Shown here one piece after another: positions 11,213 through 32,452 of a stretch of DNA of 64,000 nucleotides; position 1 is the first letter of the stretch; every line of letters starts with the position of its first letter. The translations under genes were made by a program, and so were the position numbers. The notes beneath the pieces are model-generated. The model made no database searches and was not told where the DNA came from. It worked only from the letters and a program-made list of their open reading frames with translations. This DNA is from Microlunatus panaciterrae (GTDB taxonomy: Bacteria; Actinomycetota; Actinomycetes; Propionibacteriales; Propionibacteriaceae), in assembly GCF_016907535.1 (NCBI RefSeq), contig NZ_JAFBCF010000001.1, forward strand, positions 3,782,001 through 3,846,000, given 5' to 3'.

Positions 11213-11987
11213 TCAGAGGGGGAGCCGGAAGTTGTCTCTGATCTGGGCTGCGACGGACTGGAGAAAGGGGGCGATGCGGGGTACGTCTTCCATGGTGAGT
11301 CGACCGCTGGGACCGGAGACTGAGATGGCTGCGAGGAAGGGTAGGCCGGTGAGGGGTACGGCGACGCAGCGGACCCCCAATTCCTGCTCGCCGTCGTCCA
11401 GGGCGTAGCCGAGGTCTCGGGCCTGCGCGAGCTCGGTGAGCATGGCGTCGATGCTCACGAGGGTGTTCTCGGTCCGCGGTGGCATCCCCGTTCGAGCCAG
11501 CAGGCGCGCCGCCTGCTCGTCGCTGAGCATGGACAGGATGGCTTTGCCGACGCCGGTGCAGTGCGGCATCACGACGCGGCCGACTTCCGTGAACATGCGC
11601 ATGGACTGCGGGGAGGGGACTTGCGCCACATAGATGCAGGAGTCACCCTCGAGCATCGCCATGTTGGTCGTCTCGCCGAACTCCTCGACCGGGCTCGCCA
11701 GGTACGGTGTCGCCCACGAGCCAAGTCCGCGGCTGGCGGACTGTCCAAAGCGGATCATCCGCAGCCCGAGGGCATAACGCTTAGAGGGTTCCTGGCGTAC
11801 ATAGCCCTCGCTCATCAAGAAGCGCAGCAGCCTGTGGATGGTGGGACGGCACGTCGGTGAGTTGGGCAAGTTCGGAAAGCGACAGCGGACCGTCAGCGTC
11901 AGCGAGCCGTTCGAACAGGGTGAGGACGCGGTCGACGGACTGCACGCGCTCGGGGCTTCGGAGCTTATCGGCTTTTGCTTCCATCAT
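11213..11987 (-). pseudogene. IclR-family regulator split by a frameshift
   Basis: The N-terminal part reads from ATG 11987 with a typical IclR start (V-Q-S-V-D-R-V-L-T-L-F) and the first helices of the winged HTH, S-L-S-E-L-A-Q-L-T-D-V-P. Near 11847 the continuation P-T-I-H-R-L-L-R-F-L lies in another frame, which then runs to the stop at 11213 through a complete IclR effector domain (Y-A-L-G-L-R ... V-A-V-P-L-T ... A-A-I-S-V-S-G-P). A single-base deletion or a sequencing error in the recognition helix explains it. If real, the regulator is dead. It is divergent from the malic enzyme gene, which it probably controlled. Confidence 0.75.
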
Positions 11988-13835: not shown

Positions 13836-14677
13836 GGCCGATCCGACCGCGGCATACCGCAGCCCATCTTCCTCGACCGGACGGGCGACGAGATCCACAC
13901 GTCGATGGAAGCCGGGGTGATGGTCCGCAAGGCCGAAATGAAGAACCAGCCCTGGATCAAGGCTACGAGGACAACAACGTCGACACGGGACTCGGCGCCG
14001 GCATGCACGGCCGCGCCCAGATCGGCAAGGGCATGTGGGCCATGCCGGACCTGATGGCCGATATGCTCGAGCAGAAGATCGCGCACCCCCTGGCCGGTGC
14101 CAGCACCGCCTGGGTGCCCTCGCCGACCGCCGCCGTGCTGCATGCGTTGCACTATCACCAGGTGGACGTCCGCGAGCGTCAGAACGAGCTGGCTGGACGA
14201 CGCAGAAGCTCCCTCGGCGACCTCCTGACCATCCCTTTGGCCCCCTCCACCGATTGGTCCACTTCGGAGAAACAGAAGGAACTGGACAATAACATCCAGT
14301 CGATTTTGGGCTACGTCGTCCGTTGGATAGATCAGGGCGTCGGCTGCTCCAAAGTTCCCGACATCGACGACATCGCCCTCATGGAGGACCGCGCCACGCT
14401 ACGTATCTCCAGCCAGATGGTGGCCAACTGGCTACGCCACGGGGTGGTCAGCGAGGAGCAGGTCACCCACAGCCTGCACAAGATGGCTGGGGTCGTCGAC
14501 CGGCAGAACGCCGGCGATCCGAACTACCGGTCGATGAGCGACGATCCAGGTTCGAACATTGCGTTCAACACCGCGCGTGAGTTGATCATCGAGGGCACTC
14601 GGCAGCCGAACGGTTACACCGAACCCATCCTCCATCGGCGCCGACGCGAATACAAAGCGTCCATCTCCAGCGGCTGA
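13836..14677 (+). pseudogene. glcB: Truncated, frameshifted malate synthase G
   Basis: [16 protein letters not shown] (from 13869) and, after a one-base loss near 13965, [17 protein letters not shown] then [17 protein letters not shown] are hallmark malate synthase G sequence. The C-terminus ends naturally with [14 protein letters not shown]. The N-terminal half of the enzyme is absent, cut at the IS1380-like remnant. Malate synthase condenses glyoxylate with acetyl-CoA; this copy cannot. A functional copy may exist elsewhere. Confidence 0.85.
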
Positions 14678-14785: not shown

Positions 14786-15874
14786 CTAGAGGAAGGACGT
14801 CTGCCGCTCCCACTGCTGCAGGATCGAGCTTTGGACCTCGACACCCCATCCGGGCGCGTCGGACAGGACGAACTCGCCGTCGCGGGCCACCGGGAACGGC
14901 TCGTAGACGTGCATGTCCGATGCGTCCTCGATGGTCCACTCGTGGAAGAGGCTGCACGCTGGCATCGCCGTCACCAGGTGGGCGGTGAAGATCGCAGTCA
15001 GCGACCGTCCCGAGGAGTGGGGTACGCACGGGATCCCGGCCAGATCGGCCATCTCGGCAACCTGCCGTGCGCGGGTGATACCCCCGATGTAGCCGACGTC
15101 CGGCTGGATGATGTCGACCGCGCCGTCGTTGACCAGTCGGCGCATGTTCTCGAGGGAGAACTCCTGCTCTCCGACTCCAACGAGGATGTCGAGGGTGTCG
15201 GTCACTCGCTTGGCGTTGTCGTGCTCCCAGAAGGGCACGGGCTCTTCGAAGTGCAGGTAGTCCTGGTGCTCCAGCATGCGACCCACCCGGACCGCCTGGC
15301 CGGGAGAGTAGGCGCCGTTGCCGTCGGCGCTCAGCTCGATGTCGTCGCCGAGCTCTTGGCGGAGCAGGGGCACTAGTTTCGACGTGCGTCCGTTGCTAGG
15401 TTCGGAATCGCGGCCGTTGCGCTCGCCGATCTTGATCTTGACTGCGCGGAAGCCGTGCTCGGCCACCGCCTTCACCATCCGGTCCACCTCCTGCTCCGGC
15501 GTCGTGTCGCGGCGCATGCTGGAGCCGTACAGCGGTACCAACGTCCGCGCCTTGCCTCCGAGCAGCTGGTAGACGGGCTGGCCCTTCGCCTTGCCGACCA
15601 GATCCCACAGGGCCGTGTCGACCCCGGCCAGGGCCCGGAACAGAAAGCTGCCCAACACCTTGTACTCGGCCCGGGCGCACTCCGCAGCCAGCGTCATGAC
15701 GTCGAACGGATCGCGGCCGAGGTAGTTGCGGGCGACCAGTCTGTGCAGCACCATGGCGGTGATCTGCGCCTCGGAGTGTGCAGTCTGACCGTAGCCCTCC
15801 AAGCCGTCGTCGGTGCACACCCGCACGATGCAGCCGTGACCCGAGAACGTCTCAATGGACACGATCTTGGTCAT
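14786..15874 (-). CDS. Enolase-superfamily enzyme (mandelate racemase/muconate lactonising type)
   Basis: 362 residues; GGAGG precedes the ATG. The N-terminal capping domain runs to about 115, then a barrel. Catalytic residues visible: Lys146 and Lys148 (V-K-I-K-I-G), metal ligands Asp184 (S-A-D-G-N-G), Glu210 (H-F-E-E-P) and Glu236 (G-V-G-E-Q), Asp259 (Q-P-D-V) and His286 (V-P-H-S-S-G). This is the mandelate racemase-type set (Lys plus His/Asp dyad), usual for acid-sugar dehydratases and racemases. It is the last gene of the 26.7-14.8 kb operon, so its substrate probably derives from the compound imported by the ABC system. Substrate not predictable from sequence. Confidence 0.88.
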   Translation of the reverse strand: MTKIVSIETFSGHGCIVRVCTDDGLEGYGQTAHSEAQITAMVLHRLVARNYLGRDPFDVMTLAAECARAEYKVLGSFLFRALAGVDTALWDLVGKAKGQPVYQLLGGKARTLVPLYGSSMRRDTTPEQEVDRMVKAVAEHGFRAVKIKIGERNGRDSEPSNGRTSKLVPLLRQELGDDIELSADGNGAYSPGQAVRVGRMLEHQDYLHFEEPVPFWEHDNAKRVTDTLDILVGVGEQEFSLENMRRLVNDGAVDIIQPDVGYIGGITRARQVAEMADLAGIPCVPHSSGRSLTAIFTAHLVTAMPACSLFHEWTIEDASDMHVYEPFPVARDGEFVLSDAPGWGVEVQSSILQQWERQTSFL

Positions 15875-15908
15875 GGCTGGCCTCCGGCGTCACCTCGCAT
15901 GGGTAGGC

Positions 15909-17012
15909 TCACGCGGCCCGCGCGGGCAGACCGTAGAAGGCTCTGGCGTTCTCGGTGTAGATCTTGTCGCGGTGCCCCGCTGGCAGCCTGACCTGGAACG
16001 CGTGGGCCGGGTGGTCGAAGTCCCAGTGCGGGTAGTCCGTGGAGAACATGACCTTGTCCACACCACCCAGATGCTCGAAGACCTTGTGCAGGTCCGCGCT
16101 CCGGTGTGGCTCCTCGATTGGCTGCGTGGTCACCCAGAAGTGGTCGCGGATGTATTCGGATGGCTTCCGCCGCAGGTGTGGGACCTCGGACTTGAAGCGA
16201 TGCCACTGCTTGTCCATCCGCCACGCCAGGGACGGCAGCCAGGCGAAGCCCCCCTCGATCAGGGCGATCCGAAGGTCGGGGATGTGCTCGAACACGCCCC
16301 CGAACACCATGCTGGCCACATGCGCCTGGAAGGCAGCCGACATCCCCGTGTGGTCCTCGATGTAATACGAGGGCCAGCCCGCGGAGCTTATGGGAACGCC
16401 GCGGACACCTCCGCCGTAGTGGATGCCGACCGGAAGGTTGTGTCGGGTCGCCGCCTCGTACAGCTTCCAGTATTTTCGGTCGCCGAGCGGCGCCGAGCTT
16501 CTGGCGACCAGCAGCACCTGTACGAAGCCGGGGTGGCCGGCCAGCCGCTCGATCTCCGCGACAGCCTGCTCGCTGTGCTCGGCGGGGACGATCAGCCCCG
16601 CCCGCAGCCGGGGTTCGGGCTCCAGCCATTCCGCGATCTGCCAGTCGTTCGTCGCTGCCGACAACGCGGCGGCGTAGTCCGGGTCGAGCTGGCTGCCGGC
16701 CGGACTGAGGCAGCCGAGGATCCCGAACTCGACGTTGAGCGCATCCAAGTGCTGCTGCTGCATGAAGCTCAGATCGGCGCCCGGCGCCAGCCCGGATGGA
16801 GGGAACGCGTCCCACCGGGCCGGCGAACCCTTGGGGTACACCGACCCTGAGTGCTGACGGGACCCGAAGGCGCGTTGGTGCTGCAGCCATCGGTTGGGCA
16901 GGAACGGGTCGAGCGACTTTGGTGACATCACGTTGTGGATGTCACAGTCGATGATCATCTGCTTGACGCGCGGGCCGGCCTTGGCCCTGGGTTCCATGAT
17001 CGTGTCAGTCAT
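15909..17012 (-). CDS. ACMSD-like amidohydrolase family 2 protein (copy 1)
   Basis: 367 residues. Strand 1 has D22-x-D24-x-H26 (D-C-D-I-H), strand 5 has His198 in G-I-H-Y-G-G, His231 lies in F-Q-A-H, and strand 8 has Asp326 in S-T-D-Y-P-H-W-D. This is the metal-site layout of amidohydrolase_2 proteins, which include decarboxylases of carboxylated aromatics and C-C or ester hydrolases. No signal peptide, so cytoplasmic. It closely resembles the next upstream gene, implying duplication. The gap to that gene is 97 bp. The reaction is unknown; decarboxylation or hydrolysis of a ring-derived carboxylate is the family-based guess. Confidence 0.85.
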   Translation of the reverse strand: MTDTIMEPRAKAGPRVKQMIIDCDIHNVMSPKSLDPFLPNRWLQHQRAFGSRQHSGSVYPKGSPARWDAFPPSGLAPGADLSFMQQQHLDALNVEFGILGCLSPAGSQLDPDYAAALSAATNDWQIAEWLEPEPRLRAGLIVPAEHSEQAVAEIERLAGHPGFVQVLLVARSSAPLGDRKYWKLYEAATRHNLPVGIHYGGGVRGVPISSAGWPSYYIEDHTGMSAAFQAHVASMVFGGVFEHIPDLRIALIEGGFAWLPSLAWRMDKQWHRFKSEVPHLRRKPSEYIRDHFWVTTQPIEEPHRSADLHKVFEHLGGVDKVMFSTDYPHWDFDHPAHAFQVRLPAGHRDKIYTENARAFYGLPARAA

Positions 17013-17109
17013 TGTTTGGTCTCCTTTGCACTGCTCGTTGATGCGCGTGGGCCAGTCAGCACGGCAACTCCTCCGCTGCTGAGCCCAGGGGGCGGACGCC
17101 TGGCCACAC

Positions 17110-18234
17110 CTACGCCGGCTTCCGTGCCGGCAACCGGTAGAAGGCGCGTGCGTTCTCGGAGTAGATCTGCTCCTTCTGCGCTGTGGGGATCCGCTCCTGG
17201 AAGGCGTGGGTGGGTGAGTCGAAGTCCCAGTGCGGGTAGTCGGTGGAGAACATCACCTTGTCGACGCCGCCCATGTGCTCGAACACCTTGGCCAGGTCAC
17301 CGCGCCGGTGCGGCTCCTCGATGGGCTGGGTGGTGAACCAGAAATGATCACCGATGTAATCGCTGGGGCGGCGCCTCAGGGCGGGGACTTCTGAACGGAG
17401 CCGCTTCCACTGCTTGTCCAGCCGCCAGGTCAAGGACGGGAGCCACGCGAAGCCGCCCTCGATCAGGGCGATCCTCAGGTTGGGCAGCCGATCGAAGATC
17501 CCCGACAGCACCAGGCTGGTGACGTGGGCCTGGAAAGCCGTGGACATCACCGCGTGGTCCTCCAGGTAGTACGACGGCCAGCCGGCAGCGGTCACCGGCA
17601 CTCCTCGGGCCCCGCCACCGAAGTGCACGCCGACCGGTAGGTCGTGACGGGACGCCGCCTCGTAGATCTTCCAATACCTCCGATCACCCAGCGGAGCGGA
17701 GGTCCGGGCGACCAGCAGGACCTGGATGAAGGCGGGATTGTCGGCCCGGCGCTCGATCTCGCGAGCGGCCAGGTCGCCGTCCTCCATGGGCACCACGATC
17801 CCGCCGCGCAGGCGGTCGTCCTGGTCCATCCACTCGTCGACCTGCCAGTCGTTGGTGGCGCTCGCCAGGGCCGCCCCGTACTCCACGTTCAGCTGGCCCG
17901 AGGCGGCCCCGAGGCAGTTCAGGACGCCGAACTCGACGCCCATCGGGTCCAGGTGCTGCTGTTGCATGAACCCGAGGTCAGCGCCGGCCGCCAGCCCTGA
18001 CGGCGGCGACGCGTCCGCACGGGCGGCCCCCGGTGAGCCCTTGGGATACATGGCCCCCGTGTGCTGGCGGCTGCCGTAGGTGCGGTGGTGCTGCAGCCAC
18101 CGGTTGGACAGGTACGGATCCAGGGACCCGGGGGAGATCACGTTGTGGATGTCGCAGTCGATGATGGGGAACCGCGGGGTGCGGTCCTTGGCACGTCCCT
18201 CGTCCAGCACGGTGTTGGTCATGGTGTCCGTCAC
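17110..18234 (-). CDS. ACMSD-like amidohydrolase family 2 protein (copy 2)
   Basis: 374 residues, the closest paralogue of the protein encoded at 15909-17012: the same D-C-D-I-H strand 1, G-V-H-F-G-G strand 5, F-Q-A-H and S-T-D-Y-P-H-W-D motifs, and the same M-Q-Q-Q-H-L-D block. All predicted metal and catalytic residues are present. Its ATG overlaps the stop of the third copy by 4 nt (ATGA), so the two are translationally coupled and may form hetero-oligomers. Two such similar active copies in one operon suggest two successive or alternative substrates. Confidence 0.85.
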   Translation of the reverse strand: MTDTMTNTVLDEGRAKDRTPRFPIIDCDIHNVISPGSLDPYLSNRWLQHHRTYGSRQHTGAMYPKGSPGAARADASPPSGLAAGADLGFMQQQHLDPMGVEFGVLNCLGAASGQLNVEYGAALASATNDWQVDEWMDQDDRLRGGIVVPMEDGDLAAREIERRADNPAFIQVLLVARTSAPLGDRRYWKIYEAASRHDLPVGVHFGGGARGVPVTAAGWPSYYLEDHAVMSTAFQAHVTSLVLSGIFDRLPNLRIALIEGGFAWLPSLTWRLDKQWKRLRSEVPALRRRPSDYIGDHFWFTTQPIEEPHRRGDLAKVFEHMGGVDKVMFSTDYPHWDFDSPTHAFQERIPTAQKEQIYSENARAFYRLPARKPA

Positions 18235-19325
18235 TTGAACCGGTAGGTGGCGAGCGCATTGCCTGCCATGATCTTGCTCTGCAGCTCGGCCGAGAGCCCT
18301 CGTGGCATGGACTCGACCGGCTCGTCGAAGTGCGCGTGGGGGTAGTCGGTCGAGAACATCAGCATCTCGTCGCAGAGCAGCTGGTCGATGACGTCAACCA
18401 GGAACTCCGGTGTTTCGGGGTCGTCCAGTGGCTGGATGGTCATCCGGACGTGGTCGCGGATCACCTCCGATGGTGGGCGGCTCACCCAGGGGACTTCACG
18501 CCGCAGACCCTTCCAGTCCTTATCGAACCGCCACATCAGCGGCGGCAGCCAGGCGAAGCCGCCCTCGATCGTGGCCACCTTCAACTCAGGGAACTCGACG
18601 AAAACACCCTCGGCGACGAGGCTGAGCAACTGGGCCTGGAAGGCCAGCGGCACGTCGACGTAGTCCTCGATGAAGTAGGTCGGCCAGCCCACCGGGGTGA
18701 GGGGGTTGCCGCTGATCCCACCCGCCTGGATCCCGACGACCAGCCCTGCCGCCTGCGCAGCCCGATAGATGGGCCAGAAACCTCGCCGGCCCAGTGGTTC
18801 ACGGGAGCGCGAGGGCACTGTCACCTGGACGAACTCGCTGAATTGGGAGGCCCACTCCACCTCGGCGGCGGCCATGTGCGGGTTCTGCAGCGGGAGAACC
18901 GCCGATCCGCGAAGCCGGGAGTCCTGCTGCAGCCACTCCTCGAGCTGCCACCGGTTGATCGCCCGGGCCAGTGCCGCAGCCAGGTCGTCGTTGTGCACCG
19001 AGTCGACGCCGTAAGTGCAGTTCAGGACGGCGTACTGCAGCTTCCAGGGGTCGAGGAGCTGGCTGCGGAGCAGGTCGAGGTTGGAACCGGCCGGCCCCTT
19101 TTCCGGCCGTGACCCCTCTAGATAAAGGTTAGGTACGTTGGCGGGGTAGAGGTCGGACGCCAACCCACCCATCCCTGACTCGACGATGTAGTCGCGCCAG
19201 CGCAGCTCGAGGTAGGGGAACAGCGTGGAGAGGCTGTCTAGGTTGAGGTGCACGTCGGTGTCCACCAGCGGCGCACCGTCCCACTCGGCAGGGCGGGCGT
19301 AGTTACGCAGTGCGAGTGTGTCCAT
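18231..19325 (-). CDS. Divergent ACMSD-like amidohydrolase (copy 3), altered active site
   Basis: 364 residues. Same fold and the same strand-1 motif (D-T-D-V-H, residues 22-26) and strand-8 S-T-D-Y-P-H as its two paralogues. But the strand-5 His is replaced by Gln200 (G-I-Q-A-G-G), the F-Q-A-H His is Gln232 (F-Q-A-Q), and the I-E-D-H His is Tyr. Expected metal and catalytic positions are therefore lost. It may be a non-catalytic partner of the coupled copy 2 or catalyse a different reaction without the usual metal. It is read before copies 2 and 1 in the operon. Confidence 0.82.
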   Translation of the reverse strand: MDTLALRNYARPAEWDGAPLVDTDVHLNLDSLSTLFPYLELRWRDYIVESGMGGLASDLYPANVPNLYLEGSRPEKGPAGSNLDLLRSQLLDPWKLQYAVLNCTYGVDSVHNDDLAAALARAINRWQLEEWLQQDSRLRGSAVLPLQNPHMAAAEVEWASQFSEFVQVTVPSRSREPLGRRGFWPIYRAAQAAGLVVGIQAGGISGNPLTPVGWPTYFIEDYVDVPLAFQAQLLSLVAEGVFVEFPELKVATIEGGFAWLPPLMWRFDKDWKGLRREVPWVSRPPSEVIRDHVRMTIQPLDDPETPEFLVDVIDQLLCDEMLMFSTDYPHAHFDEPVESMPRGLSAELQSKIMAGNALATYRFK

Positions 19326-19427
19326 GGCTGCTTCTCACTTTCGTCGCTATCACGAGCCACGCCGGCTCGTGTCGTTCTGGGGTTCGGTGTGCTGAGAAGG
19401 GTGTACCGGCCGGGCCGCGTTGCGCTG

Positions 19428-20381
19428 TCACAGGTCGAGCACCAGCCTCGGGGTCAACGAACGGGAGACACAGATCATCATCGTGTCGTTCGACGCCCGC
19501 TCGTCCTCGTCCAGGATCGAATCGCGGTGATCTGGCAGCCCGCCGAGCACCGTGGTCTGGCAGGTCCCGCACGTACCCTCCTCGCAGTTGGACAGGACGT
19601 AGATTCCCGCTTGGTCGACCACCTCGAGGATGGACATGTCCGGCGGCACCATCAGGACGGCATCGCTGTCGACCAGCTCGATCTCGAACGGTCCGTTCAG
19701 GACCGGGCCGGTGGCGGGACGTGGCGCGAACCGCTCGACGTGCAGCGTGCCCGGTGGCCAGTGGCGGCTCTTGGCCTCCACCGCGGCGATCAGCGGCTCC
19801 GGTCCGCAGCAATAGATCAGGGTGTCCGGCTCTGGGCGCCCCAGCAGACCGTCCAGATCGATCAGCCCGCACCGGTCCTGGGGCCACTCCAGCACCCGAT
19901 CCGGGTCGGCGCTCCGGAGCTCCGTTCGGTAGGCCATCGACGCCTCCGTCCGCCCCCCGTAGACCAGCCGCCAGTCGGCACCTGCCGCCCGAGCTAGCGC
20001 GATCATCGGGATGATCGGGGTGATGCCGATGCCTCCGGCGATGAAGAGGTAACGCGGCGACGGCTGCAGCTCGAAGTGGTTACGCGGGCCCGTGGCCAGC
20101 AGGACGTCACCGACCTGCACCCGCTCGCACAGGGCAGCCGAACCTCCGCGGCTCTGTGGCTCGCGGAGCACCGCGATCCGCCAGCGGCCCCGGTCGTCGG
20201 TCGATCCACACAGTGAGTACTGGCGGACCAGGTCAGGGCCCAGCTGGAGGTCGATGTGGCTGCCCGCCTGCCAACTGGGCAGGGGTCCTCCCTCGACGTT
20301 CTCCAGGACGAGCTCGGTGATTCCTGCGGCGACAGAGCGCAACGACGTCACCGTCAGCGGCGTGGTGCACTCTCCATGCAT
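19428..20381 (-). CDS. Flavin/2Fe-2S oxidoreductase (phthalate dioxygenase reductase type)
   Basis: 317 residues. FMN/FAD-binding domain with R-Q-Y-S-L-C (53-58), an NAD(P)-binding domain with G-G-I-G-I-T-P (116-122) and C-C-G-P (191-194), then a C-terminal plant-type ferredoxin domain with Cys266, Cys271, Cys274 and Cys304. This domain order is that of phthalate dioxygenase/vanillate demethylase reductases. It moves electrons from NAD(P)H through flavin to 2Fe-2S and onward to an oxygenase. It is read just after the Rieske protein gene, 15 bp apart. No oxygenase large subunit is visible in the window, so the final acceptor is unknown. Confidence 0.9.
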   Translation of the reverse strand: MHGECTTPLTVTSLRSVAAGITELVLENVEGGPLPSWQAGSHIDLQLGPDLVRQYSLCGSTDDRGRWRIAVLREPQSRGGSAALCERVQVGDVLLATGPRNHFELQPSPRYLFIAGGIGITPIIPMIALARAAGADWRLVYGGRTEASMAYRTELRSADPDRVLEWPQDRCGLIDLDGLLGRPEPDTLIYCCGPEPLIAAVEAKSRHWPPGTLHVERFAPRPATGPVLNGPFEIELVDSDAVLMVPPDMSILEVVDQAGIYVLSNCEEGTCGTCQTTVLGGLPDHRDSILDEDERASNDTMMICVSRSLTPRLVLDL

Positions 20382-20396
20382 GACTGCTCCCGGACG

Positions 20397-20843
20397 TCAG
20401 AGGTTGACGATGACGTAGTCGCGGTCGACCTCGACCTGATACGTCTCACTCGCATAGGGGCCAGGCTCGTACCCAGCGGCCGTCAACTCGGGGTTGCGGG
20501 CCAGACTCTCGCCCGACTCGACCGCAGTCGGGTAGGCGCGGACCTTCGTCTTCGCCGGATCGAACCAGGACTGGCCAGTCGCGATCTCGAACTCCCAGCC
20601 GTGCCAGGGGCAGCGGATGATTTCCCCGCGCATGATGTAGTCATACGTGCCGGGGCTGTCGGAGCGCACCAGGCCCGAGGTCACACCTTCGCACATCGGC
20701 CCCCCGGCGTGCGGGCACTGGTTGCGGATCGCGTAGTACTTCCCCTTGACGTTGAACACGCCCACTGAGCGCTGGGCGATCTGGACCACCTTCCGCTGGC
20801 CCGGTGGGATCTCGTCCACGGTGGCCACCACATACTTGGTCAA
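20397..20843 (-). CDS. Rieske 2Fe-2S ferredoxin-like protein
   Basis: 148 residues. It starts at TTG (20843), preceded by GAAGAGGAG and overlapping the upstream stop as TTGA. The Rieske ligands are Cys43-x-His45 (C-P-H-A-G-G) and Cys78-x2-His81 (C-P-W-H-G). The spacer between the two boxes is longer than in small Rieske ferredoxins, and a C-terminal extension follows (about 95-148). It lacks the mononuclear iron domain of an oxygenase alpha subunit. It is a probable electron carrier, paired with the reductase encoded next. Confidence 0.88.
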   Translation of the reverse strand: MTKYVVATVDEIPPGQRKVVQIAQRSVGVFNVKGKYYAIRNQCPHAGGPMCEGVTSGLVRSDSPGTYDYIMRGEIIRCPWHGWEFEIATGQSWFDPAKTKVRAYPTAVESGESLARNPELTAAGYEPGPYASETYQVEVDRDYVIVNL

Positions 20844-22030
20844 GGTTTGTCTCCTCTTCTCCGGACGGTCTTGCTGACCGCCTTCATCTGTGTCCTCGCC
20901 TCGCTCGGCGCGAGTTCCTCGGTATAGACGACTCCATCGGCGCCGGCCGCCTGTGCCAACTCGACGTCAGCAGGACTGCCAACGTGGACATAGGTCCACG
21001 GCGGACCTCCCCGGCCCTCCTGCGGCTCGGCCGGGCTCAAGCCCGCAACGGTGGCGCCGAGTGCGTCGGAGGCGAAAGCGTCGGCGGTGCGAGCCGTGAG
21101 GCCCAGCACGGGCCGTGTGACCGGATTCCGCCGGACCGTGGCGTGGCACAGGAAGTCGGTGAAGCGCGACCGCTCCACGAGCGGGTCCAGAGCGCGGCGG
21201 AGCGGCGACGACGCATACTGCTCCGAGAGCAGCCAGCCCACCGACACCTGCGGGGCCACCGCCTTCACCGTGCCGAACAGCTGCTGCTGCAGGCCGAGGT
21301 AGCCCTGCATCCACAACTGTTCCCAAGCAGCAATCTCGGGGAAGCGCAGCAGGATCCGGAACACCACCACGGCCGGGTTCTCCCCACCGGCCACTGCCGC
21401 GGCCGTCGGCCCGGCGGGGTCGAGCAGCTGGCGGTAGCCCTCGCGGGCCCGATCGACGTCGATGCCCTGCCGGTCGGCCTGGGCCTGGCAGAACGGGCAG
21501 AAACACGAGGGCGTGCAGTGCCGAGCTGGGTCGCCGACGGCCACAGCACTCAGGAAGTGGGTGAGTGGGGTGGCGCGGTCCAGCGCGAAGCAGATGCCGG
21601 CTACGGGGTAGTTCTTGACCTGGTCCTCGGCGATGCTCAGCCACAGGTTGCGGTAGTCGGGGTTGCGGAAGCAGGGGTCATCGCCGCGGCGACCGAACAC
21701 GTCGACCTCGAGCACGTTGACCCAGCCGGGGACCCGTCGGGCCTGGTCGGGGCCGGTCGTCTCGCTGAGGGCCGAATAGACCGCCATCTCGCGCACTGCC
21801 GCCTCTCGCAGCCACTGTTGCAGGGCGTCACCGCGGCCCACGGGTGGGCCGAGCAGTGTGTTCGCGTAGTAACGCGAGTGTGGGGTGGCGGCATAGCCGA
21901 CCGTCGACCAAGTGGTGACGAACACCGTGTCGACCCCGCCGTCCTCCCGCCAACGGTCGAGGGTCGCTCCCAGCCCACCCTTGCCGATCTCGACGCGCGG
22001 GGCGTGGATGCCAACCAGCGTCCGCGGCAT
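20840..22030 (-). CDS. Unrecognised TIM-barrel-like protein with Cys motif (paralogue B)
   Basis: 396 residues from ATG 22030, preceded by GGGAGGAGG and sharing one base with the upstream stop (TGATG). I do not recognise the family with certainty. It shares with the next upstream gene V-D/E-V-x-G-R-R-G-D-x-P-C ... N-P-D-Y-R (residues 109-127 here), a C-F-C-x2-C-Q motif (Cys176, 178, 181) and W-E-Q-L-W. These resemble uncharacterised glycosyl-hydrolase-like barrels. Cys172 adds a fourth possible ligand. No signal peptide. Its position between the importer and the redox genes implies action on the imported substrate. Confidence 0.75.
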   Translation of the reverse strand: MPRTLVGIHAPRVEIGKGGLGATLDRWREDGGVDTVFVTTWSTVGYAATPHSRYYANTLLGPPVGRGDALQQWLREAAVREMAVYSALSETTGPDQARRVPGWVNVLEVDVFGRRGDDPCFRNPDYRNLWLSIAEDQVKNYPVAGICFALDRATPLTHFLSAVAVGDPARHCTPSCFCPFCQAQADRQGIDVDRAREGYRQLLDPAGPTAAAVAGGENPAVVVFRILLRFPEIAAWEQLWMQGYLGLQQQLFGTVKAVAPQVSVGWLLSEQYASSPLRRALDPLVERSRFTDFLCHATVRRNPVTRPVLGLTARTADAFASDALGATVAGLSPAEPQEGRGGPPWTYVHVGSPADVELAQAAGADGVVYTEELAPSEARTQMKAVSKTVRRRGDKP

Positions 22031-23460
22031 CACTGTCCTCCTCCCGGCGCGATCAGGCCGTCCCGCGCGGCCCGGTCGATGGCGGCCCCGACGGCGCACA
22101 AGTTCTCCAGCCGCATCTCGTCGTACTCGCGGGACACCAGGAGACCAGCGGCACCCGCCTCGAACGCGCGATAGACGGCCTGGGACACCCCCTCGGGCGT
22201 GCTGCGAATCGGGTTGCCGTTGGTCGGCACGTCGAACCCCACCCCCGCGTACACCGGGGTGCTCCCACCCAAGCTGTGGACACAGCGGCGGACCTCGCGC
22301 CAGACATAGTTGGCCGACATGCCGCTGGTCGGCAGGTCCTGATAGGACGCCTCCCGGTCAGGGTCGTAGCCGAGCACCTCGAATAACAGGGTGCGCACCG
22401 CCGGCGGCGTCAGGTCGGAGAAGACCGTTCGGGCCAGCTGGTCGCAGACGATCTGAATTCGGACCCCGGCGATGTCGTGGTAGACGACGGGCTTGACCCA
22501 GTCGGAATACGTCGCCATCCGCGCGTAGTCCATCTCGGCCTGATAGAAGGGATCGAAGGTGACTCCGTGCCAAACGTGCCAGCCGACCCGGGCGGCCGGC
22601 TGCACGGCCTTGATCGTCCCGTACATCTCCTGGGCGCCGGAGTCCATCGCCTCGTGCCACAGCTGCTCCCAGGCGAAGACTTCGGGATACCGCAGCAGCA
22701 GCCGGACCAGCGACACGAAGGCCCCGTCCGCGGGTCGGTCGCCGCGGGCACACCGTTCGCAGAGCTCGTGTACAGCCCGAAAGCCCTGCATGGCCCGGTC
22801 GACCGAGATGCCGCGGGTGACCGCTAGCGTCTGGCAATGCTCGCAAAAGCAGCCAGGCGCCTTGAGGTTGAGGAACATTTGCGAGAGCGGCCCGCTGCGC
22901 TCCGCACCGTACTTGAAGCCCGCTAGTTGGTGGGTGGCGAAAACGTCGGTGACGGTGGCGGTCATCCAGCTTCGGTAGTCGGGGTTGTTCCAGCAGGGGA
23001 CGTCCCCCCGACGTCCGTACACGTCGACCACCAGAATCTGAGGCCAGTTGATGATGGCCCGGGCGAGGAACTCCTCGTGTCCCTCAAGCATCCGCCCGAA
23101 CACGGCCACACCCCGTTCCCGAGCAGGCTCGGCCAGCTCGTCGAAGATGTCGCGATCGGCGTAGACGGTGCCAGAGTTGTCGGCGTGCCGCAGCACGGTC
23201 GCCCGGTAGTACTCCTCGTGCGCCGGCACCCAGCGGTAGCCGAGTTCCCGGTCCTTGTTTCCGACGCCCTGACCGTGGTCAACCAGGCCTTCCGCGGGAC
23301 GGTTCTTCATGAAGTTCTGATAGGCGTGGCTGTAGACGAACACGGCATTGACATGTGCTGTCTCCTGCAGGGTGTCTAGCACATGCTCCACACCCTCATC
23401 GAAGACGCTGTGCGAACCCAGCTGCACGCCGACGAACGGCTCTGCCGACTGGTCCGCCAT
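22030..23460 (-). CDS. Unrecognised TIM-barrel-like protein with Cys motif (paralogue A)
   Basis: 476 residues. A barrel-like pattern of short hydrophobic strands (I-L-V-V-D-V-Y-G, G-F-K-Y-G) is followed by C-F-C-E-H-C-Q (Cys204, 206, 209) and an R-G-D-V-P-C-W-N-N-P-D-Y-R block around Cys156. The C-terminal G-A-A-G-L-L-V-S-R-E-Y strand resembles the end of glycoside hydrolase barrels. The three Cys plus a nearby His could bind a metal. No export signal. It is read 2 nt after the ABC permease stop, so it is part of the same operon. Two diverged copies side by side suggest a two-subunit enzyme or two related reactions. Confidence 0.75.
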   Translation of the reverse strand: MADQSAEPFVGVQLGSHSVFDEGVEHVLDTLQETAHVNAVFVYSHAYQNFMKNRPAEGLVDHGQGVGNKDRELGYRWVPAHEEYYRATVLRHADNSGTVYADRDIFDELAEPARERGVAVFGRMLEGHEEFLARAIINWPQILVVDVYGRRGDVPCWNNPDYRSWMTATVTDVFATHQLAGFKYGAERSGPLSQMFLNLKAPGCFCEHCQTLAVTRGISVDRAMQGFRAVHELCERCARGDRPADGAFVSLVRLLLRYPEVFAWEQLWHEAMDSGAQEMYGTIKAVQPAARVGWHVWHGVTFDPFYQAEMDYARMATYSDWVKPVVYHDIAGVRIQIVCDQLARTVFSDLTPPAVRTLLFEVLGYDPDREASYQDLPTSGMSANYVWREVRRCVHSLGGSTPVYAGVGFDVPTNGNPIRSTPEGVSQAVYRAFEAGAAGLLVSREYDEMRLENLCAVGAAIDRAARDGLIAPGGGQ

Positions 23461-23462
23461 GG

Positions 23463-24383
23463 CTACTTGATCCCCGTCATCGCGATGCCGCGAGTGAAGT
23501 ACTTCTGCGCGAACACGAAGACCACGACCGTCGGGATGATGGCCAGCGTCGCGCCGGCCATCAATGGGCCGTACTGCGTGCTATCGGAGGTCTGAAAGAA
23601 GGCAAGACCGACGGGGACGGTGAACTTGTCGAGATCGTTGAGGTAGATCAGCGGACCGAAGAAGTCGTTCCACACGTTGACGAAGGTGAGCACGCCCAGT
23701 GTGGCGAGGGCCGGTTTCGACAGGGGCAGGATGATGCTGGCGAAGATGCGGAAGTGGCTGGCCCCGTCGACGAGGGCCGCCTCGTCGTACTCCTTCGGGA
23801 TGGACATGAAGAACTGCCGCAGCAGGAACGTGCCGAAGGTGTTCGCGACGATGGGCGGGATGATGAGCGGGAAGTGTGTGTTGATCAGGCCGAGCTTGAC
23901 GTAGGCCGAATACAGCGGCAGCACCATCAGCATGTCGGGGATCATCAGGGAGCCGAGCAATAGGGCGAAGGCGAAGTCGCGACCCCGGAACTCCAACCTG
24001 GCAAAGCCGTAGGCGCCCAGGGCGCAGACGAAGAGCCGACCGATGATGACGAGAATCGTGATGTAGGCGCTGTTGCCGAAGAACCGGACGAACGGCAGGA
24101 TCCCGTTGTTGAACAGATAGGCGTAGTTCTCCAGGGTGAAGGGCTGCGGTATCAGCCGCGGGGTCAAGCTGATCACGTCCTCGGGCAGCTTGAACGAGCT
24201 CGACACCATCCAGATGAAGGGTCCGATAGCGATCGCTGCCATCACGACGCAGCCGAGGTAGGTGGCGGTGGATGCCGCAATCTTGCTTGGGCGCCTGCGG
24301 AGGGTGTCCTCCTGCGAGCCGGCGGGATCTGCTGCTTCCGACCCGTCGTGCTCGGTCCTCGCGATGGTCCCTTGAGCTGTCAC
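23463..24383 (-). CDS. ABC transporter permease, carbohydrate type (MalG/UgpE-like)
   Basis: 306 residues from GTG 24383, which shares GTGA with the stop of the other permease; earlier in-frame starts would overlap that gene extensively. Six transmembrane segments, and the cytoplasmic EAA loop reads E-A-A-L-V-D-G-A-S near residue 205. The C-terminus T-R-G-I-A-M-T-G-I-K is typical of MalG-type CUT1 permeases. It forms the membrane channel with the neighbouring permease. No ATPase gene is present in the locus, so a shared MsiK-type ATPase elsewhere is likely, as is usual for CUT1 importers in actinobacteria. Confidence 0.92.
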   Translation of the reverse strand: MTAQGTIARTEHDGSEAADPAGSQEDTLRRRPSKIAASTATYLGCVVMAAIAIGPFIWMVSSSFKLPEDVISLTPRLIPQPFTLENYAYLFNNGILPFVRFFGNSAYITILVIIGRLFVCALGAYGFARLEFRGRDFAFALLLGSLMIPDMLMVLPLYSAYVKLGLINTHFPLIIPPIVANTFGTFLLRQFFMSIPKEYDEAALVDGASHFRIFASIILPLSKPALATLGVLTFVNVWNDFFGPLIYLNDLDKFTVPVGLAFFQTSDSTQYGPLMAGATLAIIPTVVVFVFAQKYFTRGIAMTGIK

Positions 24384-25321
24384 TGGTAGAACACCCATCT
24401 CTTGGAGAGCCGGTTCTGGATCATCGTGATCAGCACCAGCATGGCCAGAAGGACGACAGCCATCGCCGAGGCGTACCCCATCTTGCGCAGTGTGAAGGCC
24501 TCGTACCAGAGGTGGTAGATGTAAACGTAGGTACCGTCTCCCGGTCCACCGCTGGTCATGACGAGGATGAGGGCGAAGACCTGGAACGAGCCGATCGTCT
24601 GCAGGATGGTGAGCAGGAAGATCGTGGGAGTGAGGAACGGGACCGTCACGTGCAGGAACCGAGCGAGTGGGCCCGCGCCGTCGAGTGTGGCCGCCTCGAC
24701 GAGCGACTCGGGTACGCTCTGCAATCCAGCCAGGATGACGATCATGTTGAAGCCCATGTTGGCCCAGATGGCCGTGATGATGACGGCTGCCATCGCCCAT
24801 GACCGCTCGCCCAACCAGTGTGGACCGGTGACGCCCAGTTGCCCGAGCACCCCGTTGATCACGCCGTACTGGTCACTAAACACCCACCGGCCCACGATGC
24901 CCACGGCCACGAGCGACGTCACGTACGGGAGGAAGATCAGCGCCCGGAAGACGGCCATTCCACGAAGCCGGTTGTTCACGAGGACCGCCAGTCCGATGCC
25001 CACAATGATGCCGATGGGCACGTAGCCGGCGGTGTAGATGATGGTGTTCACCAGGCTGCGCGAGAAGAGCGGATCGGCCCCGCTGAACATCTCCCGGTAG
25101 TTGTCCAGCCCGATGAAGCTCGGAGCGGTCAGGCCGTTCCAGTCCGCGAAGCTTGCCACCAGGGTGGGAATGATGGGAATCACGTTGAACAGCAGGGTGC
25201 CCAGCACGACCGGGCCGATGAACATCCACCCTCGGAGGTTTCGCCGCGACTTGCCGCGACGTGGGCGCGGACCAGGACTGGCCGACGATGCCACCTCGCC
25301 CTGCATGCCCTCAGCGATCAC
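24380..25321 (-). CDS. ABC transporter permease, carbohydrate type (MalF/UgpA-like)
   Basis: 313 residues if the GTG at 25321 is used; it shares GTGA with the stop of the binding-protein gene, the same arrangement as at the next junction. ATG 25306 is an alternative 15 nt in. An Arg/Lys-rich N-terminus precedes six transmembrane segments. The EAA loop reads E-A-A-T-L-D-G-A-G. It pairs with the MalG-like permease to import the substrate delivered by the lipoprotein. Confidence 0.92.
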   Translation of the reverse strand: MIAEGMQGEVASSASPGPRPRRGKSRRNLRGWMFIGPVVLGTLLFNVIPIIPTLVASFADWNGLTAPSFIGLDNYREMFSGADPLFSRSLVNTIIYTAGYVPIGIIVGIGLAVLVNNRLRGMAVFRALIFLPYVTSLVAVGIVGRWVFSDQYGVINGVLGQLGVTGPHWLGERSWAMAAVIITAIWANMGFNMIVILAGLQSVPESLVEAATLDGAGPLARFLHVTVPFLTPTIFLLTILQTIGSFQVFALILVMTSGGPGDGTYVYIYHLWYEAFTLRKMGYASAMAVVLLAMLVLITMIQNRLSKRWVFYQ

Positions 25322-26718
25322 TTGAGCACTTTCGTGTCCGGATCGGTGAGCGATCCCCCCTTTTCCAGCAGCGTCTTTCCCTGGCTGACGTCCCAATTGC
25401 GCTTCTTGATCTCCGCGTTCACCGCAGCCCGACCGATCTTGATGTAGTCGGCAGTCGACAGCTTGCCGCTCATCAAACCGTTAGCGTTCACACCCTCCAC
25501 AAACGAGTCCGCCAGCGCTGTGCCGATCGGGCCGCGCGGGAACGGGATGTCGACCGAACGGTCCTTGACGTTGCCCAGCGTCTCCGCCCAGACGCTCGGC
25601 GTGGTGGGGTAGGGATGGTCGGTGAAAGCCGAACCCTTGGCGACCTCGGTCAGGGCCGGCACGGCGAACTGAGCTTTGGCCATGACCTCGGAGGCGGCCT
25701 TACCGCTGAGTGCCTTCAGGGCGAGGAAGGCGGCCTGCGGATCCTTGGCCGTCTTGGGGATAACCCAGGTGCGGGCATAGTTCTTGGTCATCGCGAACAG
25801 CGGCGTCTTGGGCCAAGGCATAATGTCCCATTCGACGCTCTTGCTGATCTTCGCTCCCAGATCCATCCCCTGCCAGGTCATGGCCAGCTTCCCCGCATTG
25901 AACAGCGGCAGGAAGTCCACATCCACCGTGGGGGCGTAGCCCTCACGGATGTAGGAAACCTGCTTATCGATCGCCTCCAGGGTCTCGGGCTTCGAGTAGC
26001 CGCACTCGGTCTGCTCGGCATTGAGCGCGACGTCGCCGGCACCGTAGGCCGTGGCCTGGATCGTGTTTACCGCGAACTGCACACCGTAGACATCGGTCCG
26101 GTTGCCGGACTTCTTGGTGAGCTTCTTGACCGCGGCGTCGAACTCGTCCCAGCTCCACGCCTCGCTCCACGACGTCGGCGCGGTGAGGCCCGCGTCATTG
26201 AACAGCTTCTTGTTGTAGTAAAGAACGTTGGCGCTCATAGCCGGGGTGACGGAGAATTGGTATCCCTCGACGGCAACCTTGGTGGCGAAGCTCGGACTGT
26301 ACTTTGAGAGGTCGAAGCCCAGGCTCGGGTCGAGCATCATCTTGTCCAGCTGCAGGATCTTCCCGCTTGTCGCTAGGTCGTAGACCCGGTCATCGTCGAT
26401 CCGCTGGATGTCCGACGTCGTGCCGGAGGCGAACTGCAGCATGACGCTGGCCCAGTCGTCGCCGGGAGCCGGCTTCCAGACGATCTTGATCTTCTGCTCG
26501 TCCAGGCTCTCCTTCTGCGCGGCCGCGATCATGTCCTTGAACATCTTCTGTGCGGTCGTGTCGCCGATAGAGCTGAACGTCACCTCAGTAAAACCCTTGG
26601 GCGTCTGAGCGGAGGAGCTCGAACCGCAGGCGGACAATCCGCCGCCGAGGACGCCGGCGGCGATTCCTAGACCGCCCTGCAAAAGTCGTCGGCGCGGAAA
26701 GTGCAAACCAGACGTCAT
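25318..26718 (-). CDS. ABC transporter substrate-binding lipoprotein
   Basis: 466 residues; AAGGAG precedes the ATG. The N-terminus combines a Tat-like R-R-R-L-L-Q-G-G with a lipobox L-S-A-C (Cys31), so it is probably exported folded and lipid-anchored on the outer face of the membrane. The body is a typical family-1 extracellular binding protein, with T-F-S-S-I-G-D and Y-Y-N-K-K-L-F-N-D-A-G-L-T-A-P-T-S-W, the usual sugar-binding-protein signature. It is the first gene of the minus-strand operon and captures the substrate. The ligand need not be a sugar: downstream enzymes suggest a more complex glycoside or aromatic-linked compound. Confidence 0.92.
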   Translation of the reverse strand: MTSGLHFPRRRLLQGGLGIAAGVLGGGLSACGSSSSAQTPKGFTEVTFSSIGDTTAQKMFKDMIAAAQKESLDEQKIKIVWKPAPGDDWASVMLQFASGTTSDIQRIDDDRVYDLATSGKILQLDKMMLDPSLGFDLSKYSPSFATKVAVEGYQFSVTPAMSANVLYYNKKLFNDAGLTAPTSWSEAWSWDEFDAAVKKLTKKSGNRTDVYGVQFAVNTIQATAYGAGDVALNAEQTECGYSKPETLEAIDKQVSYIREGYAPTVDVDFLPLFNAGKLAMTWQGMDLGAKISKSVEWDIMPWPKTPLFAMTKNYARTWVIPKTAKDPQAAFLALKALSGKAASEVMAKAQFAVPALTEVAKGSAFTDHPYPTTPSVWAETLGNVKDRSVDIPFPRGPIGTALADSFVEGVNANGLMSGKLSTADYIKIGRAAVNAEIKKRNWDVSQGKTLLEKGGSLTDPDTKVLK

Positions 26719-27871: not shown

Positions 27872-29212
27872 ATGGTGCAGCAGCAAGCTCATTGGTTCGA
27901 TTCGGCAGGTCTGGGAGTGTTCCTCCACTGGGACGCGGCCAGCCAGGCCGGGTGGGAGATCTCTTGGCCCATGGTCGGTGGCGTGTTCTCGTTGCCCAAT
28001 GGTCAGCAGGTCGGCGCCGAGGAGTACCACGCGCTGAGCAGGACGTTCTCCCCAGAGAGATGGGACGCCCGTGCAGTTGCTCGGCTGCTGGTGGAGTGGG
28101 GGGCAGGGTATGCGGTGTTGACGGCTAAGCATCACAACGGCTTCGCCCTTTTCGACACGCGACTGTCCGACCATTCCATCATGCAGGCGCCATACGGCCG
28201 TGACATCGTTCGGGAGTTCGTCGAGGCACTCCGCGCCGAGGGTCTCCGTGTCGGGCTCTACTTCTCCTTGTCCGACTGGCACCACCCTGACTATCCAGCC
28301 TGGCGGGACGACATGCGGCCCTACGTTTTGGGTGAATCACCGCCCCGTCCTGATCCCGAGGCCTGGCGCCGCTACCGGACCTTTATGCACGGTCAAGTCC
28401 GCGAGCTGTTGTCAAACTACGGCCAGATCGACCTGCTGTGGTTCGACGGTCAGTGGGAGCGGACGCCGGAGGAGTGGGATGTGGATGGCCTCAATGCCAT
28501 AATTCGCCAGTTACAGCCGAACATCCTGGTGAACGATCGCCTGCCCCTTCACGGCGACTATGCAACCCCCGAACAGTTCGTCCCGAGCGTGCCGTTGGAC
28601 GGACGATGGGAGACGTGCATGACCATGAATGAGTCCTGGGGCTATAACCCCACCGATACCGACTACAAGTCCGTTGCCGAGATCCTGAGAACCCTGGTCG
28701 AAACCCGGTCGCGCGGGGGCAACCTGCTGCTCAATCTCAGCCCGACGGGGGACGGTTCGCTGCCCAGTGAACAAGTGGAGCGAATGACGGCGGTCGCTGA
28801 GTGGATGTCCAGCAACGGGGAGTCAGTCCGTGACGTCAGGCCGGGGCTGCAGCCGTGGCAGTTCTATGGTCCCTCAACGCAGTCGGGCTCGAAGACGTAC
28901 GCGTTTCTTGTGATGCATCCTGTGGACAAGGTGACGGTCCGCGGAGTGCGTACCAGCAAGGTCAGTTCAGTCACGGAACTGGCGTCTGGCCGGGAGCTGG
29001 CGTGGGGTGTTCGACTGCCTATCCTCGAGCAGCGGGTCCCCGATCCGGTCGGTGAGCTGGTGATCACCGTGCCCAAGGATGTGCTGAACCCGTACGTCAC
29101 CGTCGTCGTTATCGAGGGCGACCAGGCGTGTAGTCCCCGCGATCCGCGGGACGAGAAGCGGATACTTTCGACAGATCATGGCACGTCCGCCGACGCCGGT
29201 TCAGGTGTGTAG
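27872..29212 (+). CDS. Alpha-L-fucosidase, GH29
   Basis: 446 residues. AGGAGGGG lies 8 nt before the ATG. The GH29 hallmark segments are G-V-F-L-H-W (15-20), K-H-H-N-G-F-A-L-F (86-94) and L-L-W-F-D-G-Q-W, in which Asp192 is the expected nucleophile. N-E-S-W-G-Y and G-G-N-L-L-L-N follow. No signal peptide or anchor, so it acts inside the cell on imported fucosides. It is on the opposite strand from the ABC locus and separated from it by IS relics; whether they share a substrate is unknown. Confidence 0.92.
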   Translation: MVQQQAHWFDSAGLGVFLHWDAASQAGWEISWPMVGGVFSLPNGQQVGAEEYHALSRTFSPERWDARAVARLLVEWGAGYAVLTAKHHNGFALFDTRLSDHSIMQAPYGRDIVREFVEALRAEGLRVGLYFSLSDWHHPDYPAWRDDMRPYVLGESPPRPDPEAWRRYRTFMHGQVRELLSNYGQIDLLWFDGQWERTPEEWDVDGLNAIIRQLQPNILVNDRLPLHGDYATPEQFVPSVPLDGRWETCMTMNESWGYNPTDTDYKSVAEILRTLVETRSRGGNLLLNLSPTGDGSLPSEQVERMTAVAEWMSSNGESVRDVRPGLQPWQFYGPSTQSGSKTYAFLVMHPVDKVTVRGVRTSKVSSVTELASGRELAWGVRLPILEQRVPDPVGELVITVPKDVLNPYVTVVVIEGDQACSPRDPRDEKRILSTDHGTSADAGSGV

Positions 29213-31437: not shown

Positions 31438-32169
31438 TTATCCCTCCCAGATACGACCGCCGCCGAGCAGTTGCCGACGGTCGCCGGTTGCCCGCTCGAC
31501 GAGCTCCGCGGCCGGCCGGTACCCCTCCCACGGCTGCACCCAGCTGGGACCGTAGTTGAAGTACATGTTGGCCCGGACTCGTCCGCTCTGGTTGAGGTTG
31601 CCGGCGTGCAGGCAGGCTTCGCTGAACACGAGCAGATCACCTGCCTCGACGATCACCTCCTGCGTTCCTGGTGGCCCGGCTTGCTCGCTGTAGCTCGGCG
31701 GCTCGATCAGAGACTTGTGGCTGCCTGGGACGATGCGAGTGGGGCCGTCGCCGGGCCCGCAGTCGGTCAAGTACCAAATGCACTTGACCATGGTGCAGTG
31801 AAAGCCGGCAGCGTCGAGCGCATAACCGTAGGTGCCGATCCCACGGTGCCAGCCTTGCACCTTGTTGTTGCGAGGCGTGAGTTCGACGTCGTTGTCGATG
31901 AGGATGCCCGGCTCGCCGACAATTTCCTGCACCAGCGGAAGGCTGACCGGATGGTCGACGAGCTCGAGAAACATTGGGTCGCGGTTGATCGCCTGCACGC
32001 GGATCTGATCGAGCGGCTCACCGTCGCTGGTCCAGCGTTCGGCGGGAAGATCTTGCCGGGCAAGTCGGTAGATTCCGTCGCGGTAGCGAGCCACCTCCTC
32101 GGCTGTCAGGGCGGATCGGACGACAATAAAGCCGTTGAGATCGAACAGGAATCGCTGTTCGTCGGTCAT
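31438..32169 (-). CDS. Phytanoyl-CoA dioxygenase (PhyH)-like protein with HxG motif
   Basis: 243 residues from the ATG at 32169, chosen because M-T-D-E-Q-R-F-L-F-D-L-N-G is the usual family start; ATG 32196 and an upstream start at 32310 are possible. The cupin core has W-H108-R-G110, Y-L-T-D-C-G-P-G-D-G, V-P-G-S-H-K-S, the distal His188 (C-L-H-A-G-N) and Arg (R-V-R-A-N). In classic Fe(II)/2-oxoglutarate enzymes the first box is H-x-D/E; here it is H-x-G, so one iron ligand is missing. It may be a halogenase-like or otherwise altered enzyme. Not in an operon. Confidence 0.82.
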   Translation of the reverse strand: MTDEQRFLFDLNGFIVVRSALTAEEVARYRDGIYRLARQDLPAERWTSDGEPLDQIRVQAINRDPMFLELVDHPVSLPLVQEIVGEPGILIDNDVELTPRNNKVQGWHRGIGTYGYALDAAGFHCTMVKCIWYLTDCGPGDGPTRIVPGSHKSLIEPPSYSEQAGPPGTQEVIVEAGDLLVFSEACLHAGNLNQSGRVRANMYFNYGPSWVQPWEGYRPAAELVERATGDRRQLLGGGRIWEG

Positions 32170-32452
32170 GGCCTGGGTGAGCTCGTTAGCCGGCATGCGT
32201 GCGAAGATACCATCGGTGCGGGCGCTCGCTTTAGCGGGCAAACTCGGCTTCAGCGGTCCTGTCACTTCGAGGTTGACGTCACCAGGAAAACCGGGCCCGA
32301 CGGTCGCCAACCGTGTGTCACCCCGACCGCTTCATCGATGGCAGCACCGTCCCAGCTTAGGCAGGACCTTCGTCCCTCCCGAGATGCGCATCTGGACCTG
32401 CATCCTGAGGAACACAGTTCCTCAAACAACCACCAAGCAGCCAGGAGTGATC

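Follow-up and report, generated by a model that had tools for sequence, protein, structure and literature searches.

A window of 64,000 nucleotides from the Microlunatus panaciterrae genome (G000:C1:3782001-3846000; 4.07 Mb in a single contig) contains eleven co-directional minus-strand genes (26718 to 14786) that very likely encode, judging from sequence comparisons, a monooxygenase of the AibH1H2 type within a carbohydrate-type catabolic operon. The genes specify a CUT1-type sugar importer, two barrel proteins (barrel1 and barrel2), a Rieske-type ferredoxin, a ferredoxin reductase, three amidohydrolase-fold proteins (AH1, AH2 and AH3) and an enolase-superfamily enzyme of the mandelate racemase (MR) subgroup. 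The original prediction described ten tightly packed minus-strand genes; the coordinates, strand and packing stand, and the count is eleven. Its view that the genes form one catabolic transcription unit, in which CUT1 import is combined with a redox pair for an oxygenase and an MR-type enzyme for acid sugars, is supported. The Pfam families are SBP_bac_1, two BPD_transp_1, Rieske, Fer2/NAD_binding, three Amidohydro_2 and MR_MLE, with none for the barrels.

Metal sites of the amidohydrolase-fold subunits

AibH1H2GF from Rhodococcus wratislaviensis, a 2-aminoisobutyrate monooxygenase, is a three-component enzyme in which a reductase and a Rieske ferredoxin serve an H1/H2 hydroxylase that holds a dinuclear site (PMC7782822), and the active metal pair of AibH1H2 is Mn/Fe (PMC10401708). 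The window operon shares with it the H1/H2 pair, the small Rieske ferredoxin and the flavin/[2Fe-2S] reductase, all encoded in one operon (PMC7782822, PMC10401708). AH3 matches AibH2 (6m1w_B) with an E-value of 2.4e-90 and other structures of the amidohydrolase-related dinuclear oxygenases (AROs; 8sm6-8sm9) with 4e-57 to 2e-85, compared to 3e-14 or weaker for ordinary decarboxylases of PF04909. AH1 matches AibH1 (6m1w_A) with an E-value of 5e-74.

The dinuclear ligands of AibH2 are D25, H27, H211, E265, D337 and H340, and D342 is an acidic second-sphere residue that is confined to dinuclear members (PMC7782822). These seven residues are equivalent to D24, H26, H198, E253, D326, H329 and D331 of AH3, and all six ligands and the second-sphere acid are kept in AH2 as well. 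The same seven positions are kept in the untruncated H2 orthologues of 16 further operons; one N-terminally shortened extra H2 copy lacks the first two ligand positions. H2 is, by its conserved residues, the predicted catalytic subunit. AH1, on the other hand, does not reproduce the mononuclear site of AibH1 (D24, H26, H201, E255 and D328): it has a glutamine at the β5 histidine (AibH1 H201) and a histidine at the position of the second-sphere acid. Its orthologues carry Gln, Phe or Tyr at the β5 position, with the acid at the last position absent, and some relatives also have Arg or Gln at the position of AibH1 H26; the first histidine is likewise missing from the H1 copy of G011 and from a second type of operon (see below). 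H1 is therefore predicted to be a degenerate partner, more so than the metal-holding AibH1.

A small Rieske gene alongside the hydroxylase is a hallmark of AROs (PMC10401708, PMC10811679), and such a gene (20397-20843), with a CxH...CxxH motif, is present in the operon. The original prediction remarked that no oxygenase large subunit accompanies the electron carriers. This is correct for the Rieske type, as the alpha-subunit family PF00848 has 0 matches throughout the 4.07 Mb genome; AH1-AH3, however, probably provide an oxygenase with a different fold. Since the electron carriers occur without a Rieske-oxygenase alpha subunit genome-wide, the ARO would take the place of the classical oxygenase.

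AH1-AH3 could instead be ordinary, non-redox enzymes for aromatic acids, similar to ACMSD or gamma-resorcylate decarboxylase, with the ferredoxin and reductase serving another enzyme. They do belong to the same Pfam family (PF04909), and weaker matches to the gamma-resorcylate, 5-carboxyvanillate and ACMSD decarboxylases are found. We consider this very unlikely, given that E-values for the AibH1H2 and other ARO structures are 5e-52 to 2e-90, whereas the decarboxylases reach 3e-14 at best, that the sixth dinuclear-site ligand and the second-sphere acid are retained, that the genome has no Rieske-oxygenase alpha subunit for the carriers to serve, and that the amidohydrolase pair and the Rieske gene are linked across the taxonomic order even where reductase and MR genes are missing. 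The earlier assignment of the amidohydrolases to decarboxylation or hydrolysis of ring-derived acids gives way, on the same structural matches and ligands, to an ARO assignment.

The window operon differs from that of AibH1H2GF in several respects, although H2 keeps the same six ligands and second-sphere acid. The AibH1H2GF operon contains an amino-acid permease and amino-acid enzymes, whereas the window has a CUT1 sugar importer and an MR enzyme; in addition, the window H1 lacks one metal ligand, H2 is present in an extra copy, and the gene order is ferredoxin-reductase-H1-H2. SfbO and other AROs are likewise PF04909 dinuclear oxygenases adjoining a small Rieske protein (PMC10811679), but the window system includes an H1 partner and a reductase of its own. 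Their natural substrates are not readily inferred from genomic context (PMC10811679), whereas the context here points to carbohydrate uptake. PtmU3 of platensimycin biosynthesis is a distant match (E-value 1.4e-16) with metal-site residues in common (PMC7782822). Unlike the window proteins, it is biosynthetic, lacks an auxiliary H1 subunit and acts on a CoA-linked diterpenoid substrate (PMC7782822, PMC10401708).

The barrel proteins

Barrel1 and barrel2 share 29% sequence identity, and neither matched any Pfam or NCBIfam model even at E 10 and E 1, so the novelty originally claimed for them holds as far as these two libraries extend. A PDB sequence search with barrel1 returned nothing significant. 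The AlphaFold model of barrel1 (pLDDT 91, pTM 0.91) is a (β/α)8 barrel, whose best structural matches are PgaB, Cwp19, GH42 and GH164 (Z-scores ∼21-25, ∼9-16% identity). From this model, we confidently predict that barrel1 is a glycoside-hydrolase-type barrel (PgaB/Cwp19/GH42-like), although it differs from GH42, the C-terminal domain of PgaB and Cwp19 in its low identity to them and in having no Pfam or NCBIfam family. Glu187 and Asp410, at the ends of β4 and β7, are conserved in 48 of 52 sequences and are candidate catalytic carboxylates. Four cysteines (Cys156, Cys204, Cys206 and Cys209) are invariant and all are present in barrel2; we take their pattern to resemble the zinc site of GH42, a likeness that a literature check did not confirm. 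Barrel2 has lost D21, E22, E187, H295, H298, K323, Y327 and D410. As so many conserved pocket residues are missing, barrel2 possibly acts as a partner without catalytic activity.

In a pattern scan of 84,980 species genomes, 83 barrel relatives were recovered, of which 80 were kept. They are spread over Acidobacteria, Kribbella, Chloroflexi, rhizobia, Planctomycetes and Bacteroidetes, and the genes usually found beside them encode CUT1 importers, GHL6 hydrolases and LacI regulators. One relative, on a Parabacteroides distasonis plasmid, lies with a hypothetical gene downstream of SusC/SusD (L033:10404-13437). The next genes encode glycerate kinase and an SLC13 permease, and a glycerate-yielding glycoside is possible at this locus.

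The barrels had been proposed as the redox partners of the electron carriers. A new oxygenase or redox enzyme receiving electrons from the Rieske ferredoxin would fit their position directly adjoining the Rieske gene, and four invariant cysteines could in principle hold a cluster. Against this stand the high-confidence glycoside-hydrolase fold of the barrel1 model, the retention of the ferredoxin in ten orthologous operons that have no barrels, the presence of a Rieske gene of the ferredoxin kind in only 5 of 94 clustered barrel loci, and the existence in GH42 enzymes of a similarly spaced Cys4 zinc site. We regard a redox role as exceedingly improbable, and the fold and the barrel-free operons led us to discard it.

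A barrel, an ARO and a Rieske gene occur together in four other loci. The Chloroflexi locus (L137; metagenome-assembled genome (MAG) G719) has the order SBP-perm-perm-barrel-ARO-Rieske-nitroreductase-MR, where SBP is the sugar-binding protein and perm a permease; its MR enzyme shares only 27-29% identity with the window enzyme. The others are in a Thermomicrobiales MAG (L154), in a Rhodospirillales MAG with an H1-like copy on the barrel side (L177), and in Caulobacter, with a distant ARO (L140). This linkage (4 of 80 loci, compared to ∼1 expected on a rough estimate from the ARO density in ten of the genomes) gives modest support to a functional link between barrel and ARO. The G719 genome has 15 AibH2-like matches, an unusual expansion.

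Related operons and a candidate pathway

AH3 orthologues with 80-82% identity are present in ten other genomes of the order (Kribbella, Actinopolymorpha and Microlunatus). An eight-gene core, SBP-perm1-perm2-Rieske-(reductase)-H1-H2-MR, is found together in these ten at ∼73-89% identity (SBP ∼80-82%, Rieske ferredoxin 83-87%); gene calls in the related loci come from a codon-usage script, so gene starts and the smallest genes are approximate there. In G125 the MR gene is called only in part, and in Microlunatus G007 the reductase gene is absent and a second H2, orthologous to AH2 (L088:13506-14312), lacks its N-terminal part. The original prediction had suggested a search for the same ten-gene order in other genomes. 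That order was not found; what recurs is the eight-gene core. None of the ten orthologous operons has a barrel between perm2 and Rieske, so insertion of the barrels in the window lineage is the simplest reading. H1-H2-Rieske sets of a second kind, lacking both reductase and MR, are present at five loci in the Actinopolymorpha family. Additional ARO-Rieske sets of the order have CUT1 importers or glycosidase-like genes nearby. In a phylum-wide sample, only three further ARO genomes were found at an E-value of 1e-90 or better. Proteins of 835-931 amino acids recur near ARO operons (L085:2826-5333, L099:3064-5655, L102:12055-14658 and L103:7600-10395); a Pfam search gave them no clear family, and they are possibly another undescribed glycosidase.

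The MR enzyme has the KxK motif, the D/E/E metal ligands and the D-H dyad, as read from the alignment, and is likely, by these residues, to be an acid-sugar dehydratase or epimerase. Its nearest structures (3t8q, 3tcs, 3u4f and 3t9p; E-values 3e-81 to 8e-93) have the same catalytic layout. Their PDB names give no function, and we found no paper naming it.

In G125, malate synthase G is encoded directly upstream of the related operon and in the same direction; in G140 it lies upstream together with a GlcG-like gene (named by eye from its sequence), and in G011 it lies within the cluster. A decayed malate synthase G lies in the window between the operon and malic enzyme, tail to tail with the operon, and two more malate synthase genes are present elsewhere in the genome. 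Malate synthase A directly follows GHL6 in the Kribbella barrel operons. Malate synthase beside three related operons, with a remnant here, suggests a C2 product, glyoxylate.

The operon is best read as an orphan ARO monooxygenase in carbohydrate catabolism. The findings speak neither for nor against the glycosylated aromatic originally suggested as a substrate. From the components and conserved sites read in the sequence, we infer the following route. A carbohydrate-like substrate would enter through the CUT1 importer, and the reductase would pass electrons from NADH by way of the Rieske ferredoxin to the Mn/Fe (or Fe2) centre in AH3 (or AH2), where O2 would be activated and the substrate hydroxylated. 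Hydroxylation perhaps occurs beside an ether oxygen, so that the substrate falls apart by O-dealkylation. AH1 would serve as a scaffold, probably metal-free, barrel1 would trim the glycosidic substrate before or after oxygenation, and the MR enzyme would dehydrate or epimerise the resulting sugar acid. Part of the fragments would end as glyoxylate and, through malate synthase (decayed here, present elsewhere in the genome), as malate. Ether cleavage is a possible step of this route rather than a favoured one, and the glyoxylate step is equally tentative. The fullest version, a first sugar-active ARO in which a saccharide or sugar acid is cleaved oxidatively at an ether bond by the Mn/Fe site to give glyoxylate for malate synthase, with a metal-free H1 pseudo-enzyme as scaffold and the substrate trimmed by a glycoside-hydrolase family not yet described, is doubtful as a whole.

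A more specific form of the same explanation would replace the glyoxylate branch: the oxygenase may act as an O-demethylase on a methylated sugar or sugar acid, releasing formaldehyde. The combination of sugar importer, oxygenase, electron carriers and acid-sugar enzyme would suit this, and precedents come from a P450 acting on a methyl sugar, the 6-O-methyl-galactose of porphyran (PMC10033563), and from SfbO of the same ARO family, which performs oxidative N-dealkylation of a surrogate substrate (PMC10811679). However, the window operon has no formaldehyde-detoxification gene and malate synthase points to a C2, not a C1, fragment, so we consider the demethylase unlikely. The literature on sugar-linked AROs and on 4-O-methylglucuronate demethylation offered nothing useful.

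Several observations weigh against the preferred reading of an ARO in carbohydrate catabolism. The PF04909 fold family also includes decarboxylases, hydratases and hydrolases; the core operon lacks the barrels, whose coupling to the oxygenase in the window lineage is one of position only; and malate synthase is not found at every operon, the genomes that carry this link being related. The class of machine is known, whereas the literature searched, which leaves out most subscription journals, has no precedent for the operon, its carbohydrate setting or the metal-poor H1. If the preferred reading is true, Mn/Fe C-H oxidation would extend to carbohydrate catabolism. A conserved operon linking an ARO with a sugar importer, an acid-sugar enzyme and possibly the use of glyoxylate opens the substrate to testing, as the binding protein can be screened, and the barrels mark a glycosidase-fold family that is widespread and has no model in Pfam or NCBIfam.

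Operon layout and neighbouring genes

Successive genes of the operon are separated by 11, -4, 2, -1, -4, 15, 102, -4, 97 and 34 bp, in operon order; their coordinates are listed below with those of the malate synthase remnant.

Predicted genes of the operon and the adjacent pseudogene (window coordinates)
Feature	Position	Strand	Basis
SBP, CUT1-type ATP-binding cassette (ABC) transporter sugar-binding lipoprotein	25318..26718	-	PF01547 (SBP_bac_1), E 1.4e-20
ABC permease 1	24380..25306	-	PF00528 (BPD_transp_1), E 2.1e-17; start taken at ATG 25306
ABC permease 2	23463..24383	-	PF00528, E 1.3e-17; GTG start, 4-nt overlap
Barrel1, predicted glycoside-hydrolase-fold protein	22030..23460	-	AlphaFold model; family without Pfam/NCBIfam model
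Barrel2, shorter barrel1 paralogue	20840..22030	-	Alignments and residue comparison
Rieske-type [2Fe-2S] ferredoxin (AibG-like)	20397..20843	-	PF00355, E 1.2e-17; CxH...CxxH motif
Flavin/NAD/[2Fe-2S] ferredoxin reductase (AibF-like)	19428..20381	-	PF00111, PF00175; RQYS, GGIGITP and Cx4Cx2C motifs intact
AH1, putative H1-type (alpha-prime) oxygenase subunit, degenerate metal site	18231..19325	-	AibH1 match, E 5e-74; ligand comparison
AH2, putative H2-type catalytic subunit, extra copy	17110..18234	-	Ligand comparison; 69% identity to AH3
AH3, putative H2-type catalytic subunit	15909..17012	-	AibH2 match, E 2.4e-90; ligand comparison
MR-subgroup enolase-superfamily enzyme	14786..15874	-	PF13378, E 4.6e-51, and PF02746; nearest structures 3t8q, 3tcs, 3u4f, 3t9p
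Malate synthase G remnant, pseudogene	13869..14677 (or 13869-14659)	+	Residues 466-730 only; frameshift near 13961

A gene for a PhyH-family dioxygenase (31438-32310, minus strand) is located a few kilobases upstream of the operon. PhyH enzymes are not known to use a ferredoxin, so this protein is an unlikely partner of the Rieske component. A GH29 α-L-fucosidase-like gene (27872-29212, plus strand) is divergent from the operon with ∼1.15 kb between them, and the two could share regulation. An IclR-type regulator gene (11213-11960, minus strand), whose relatives flank the orthologous operons in Kribbella and Actinopolymorpha, has a frameshift near 11844; regulation of the operon may have been lost here, or the base may be a sequencing error. 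Further away, positions 216-5882 (plus strand) encode an apparently secreted protein of 1888 amino acids with Ig-like 'GNT...DKTAPT' repeats.

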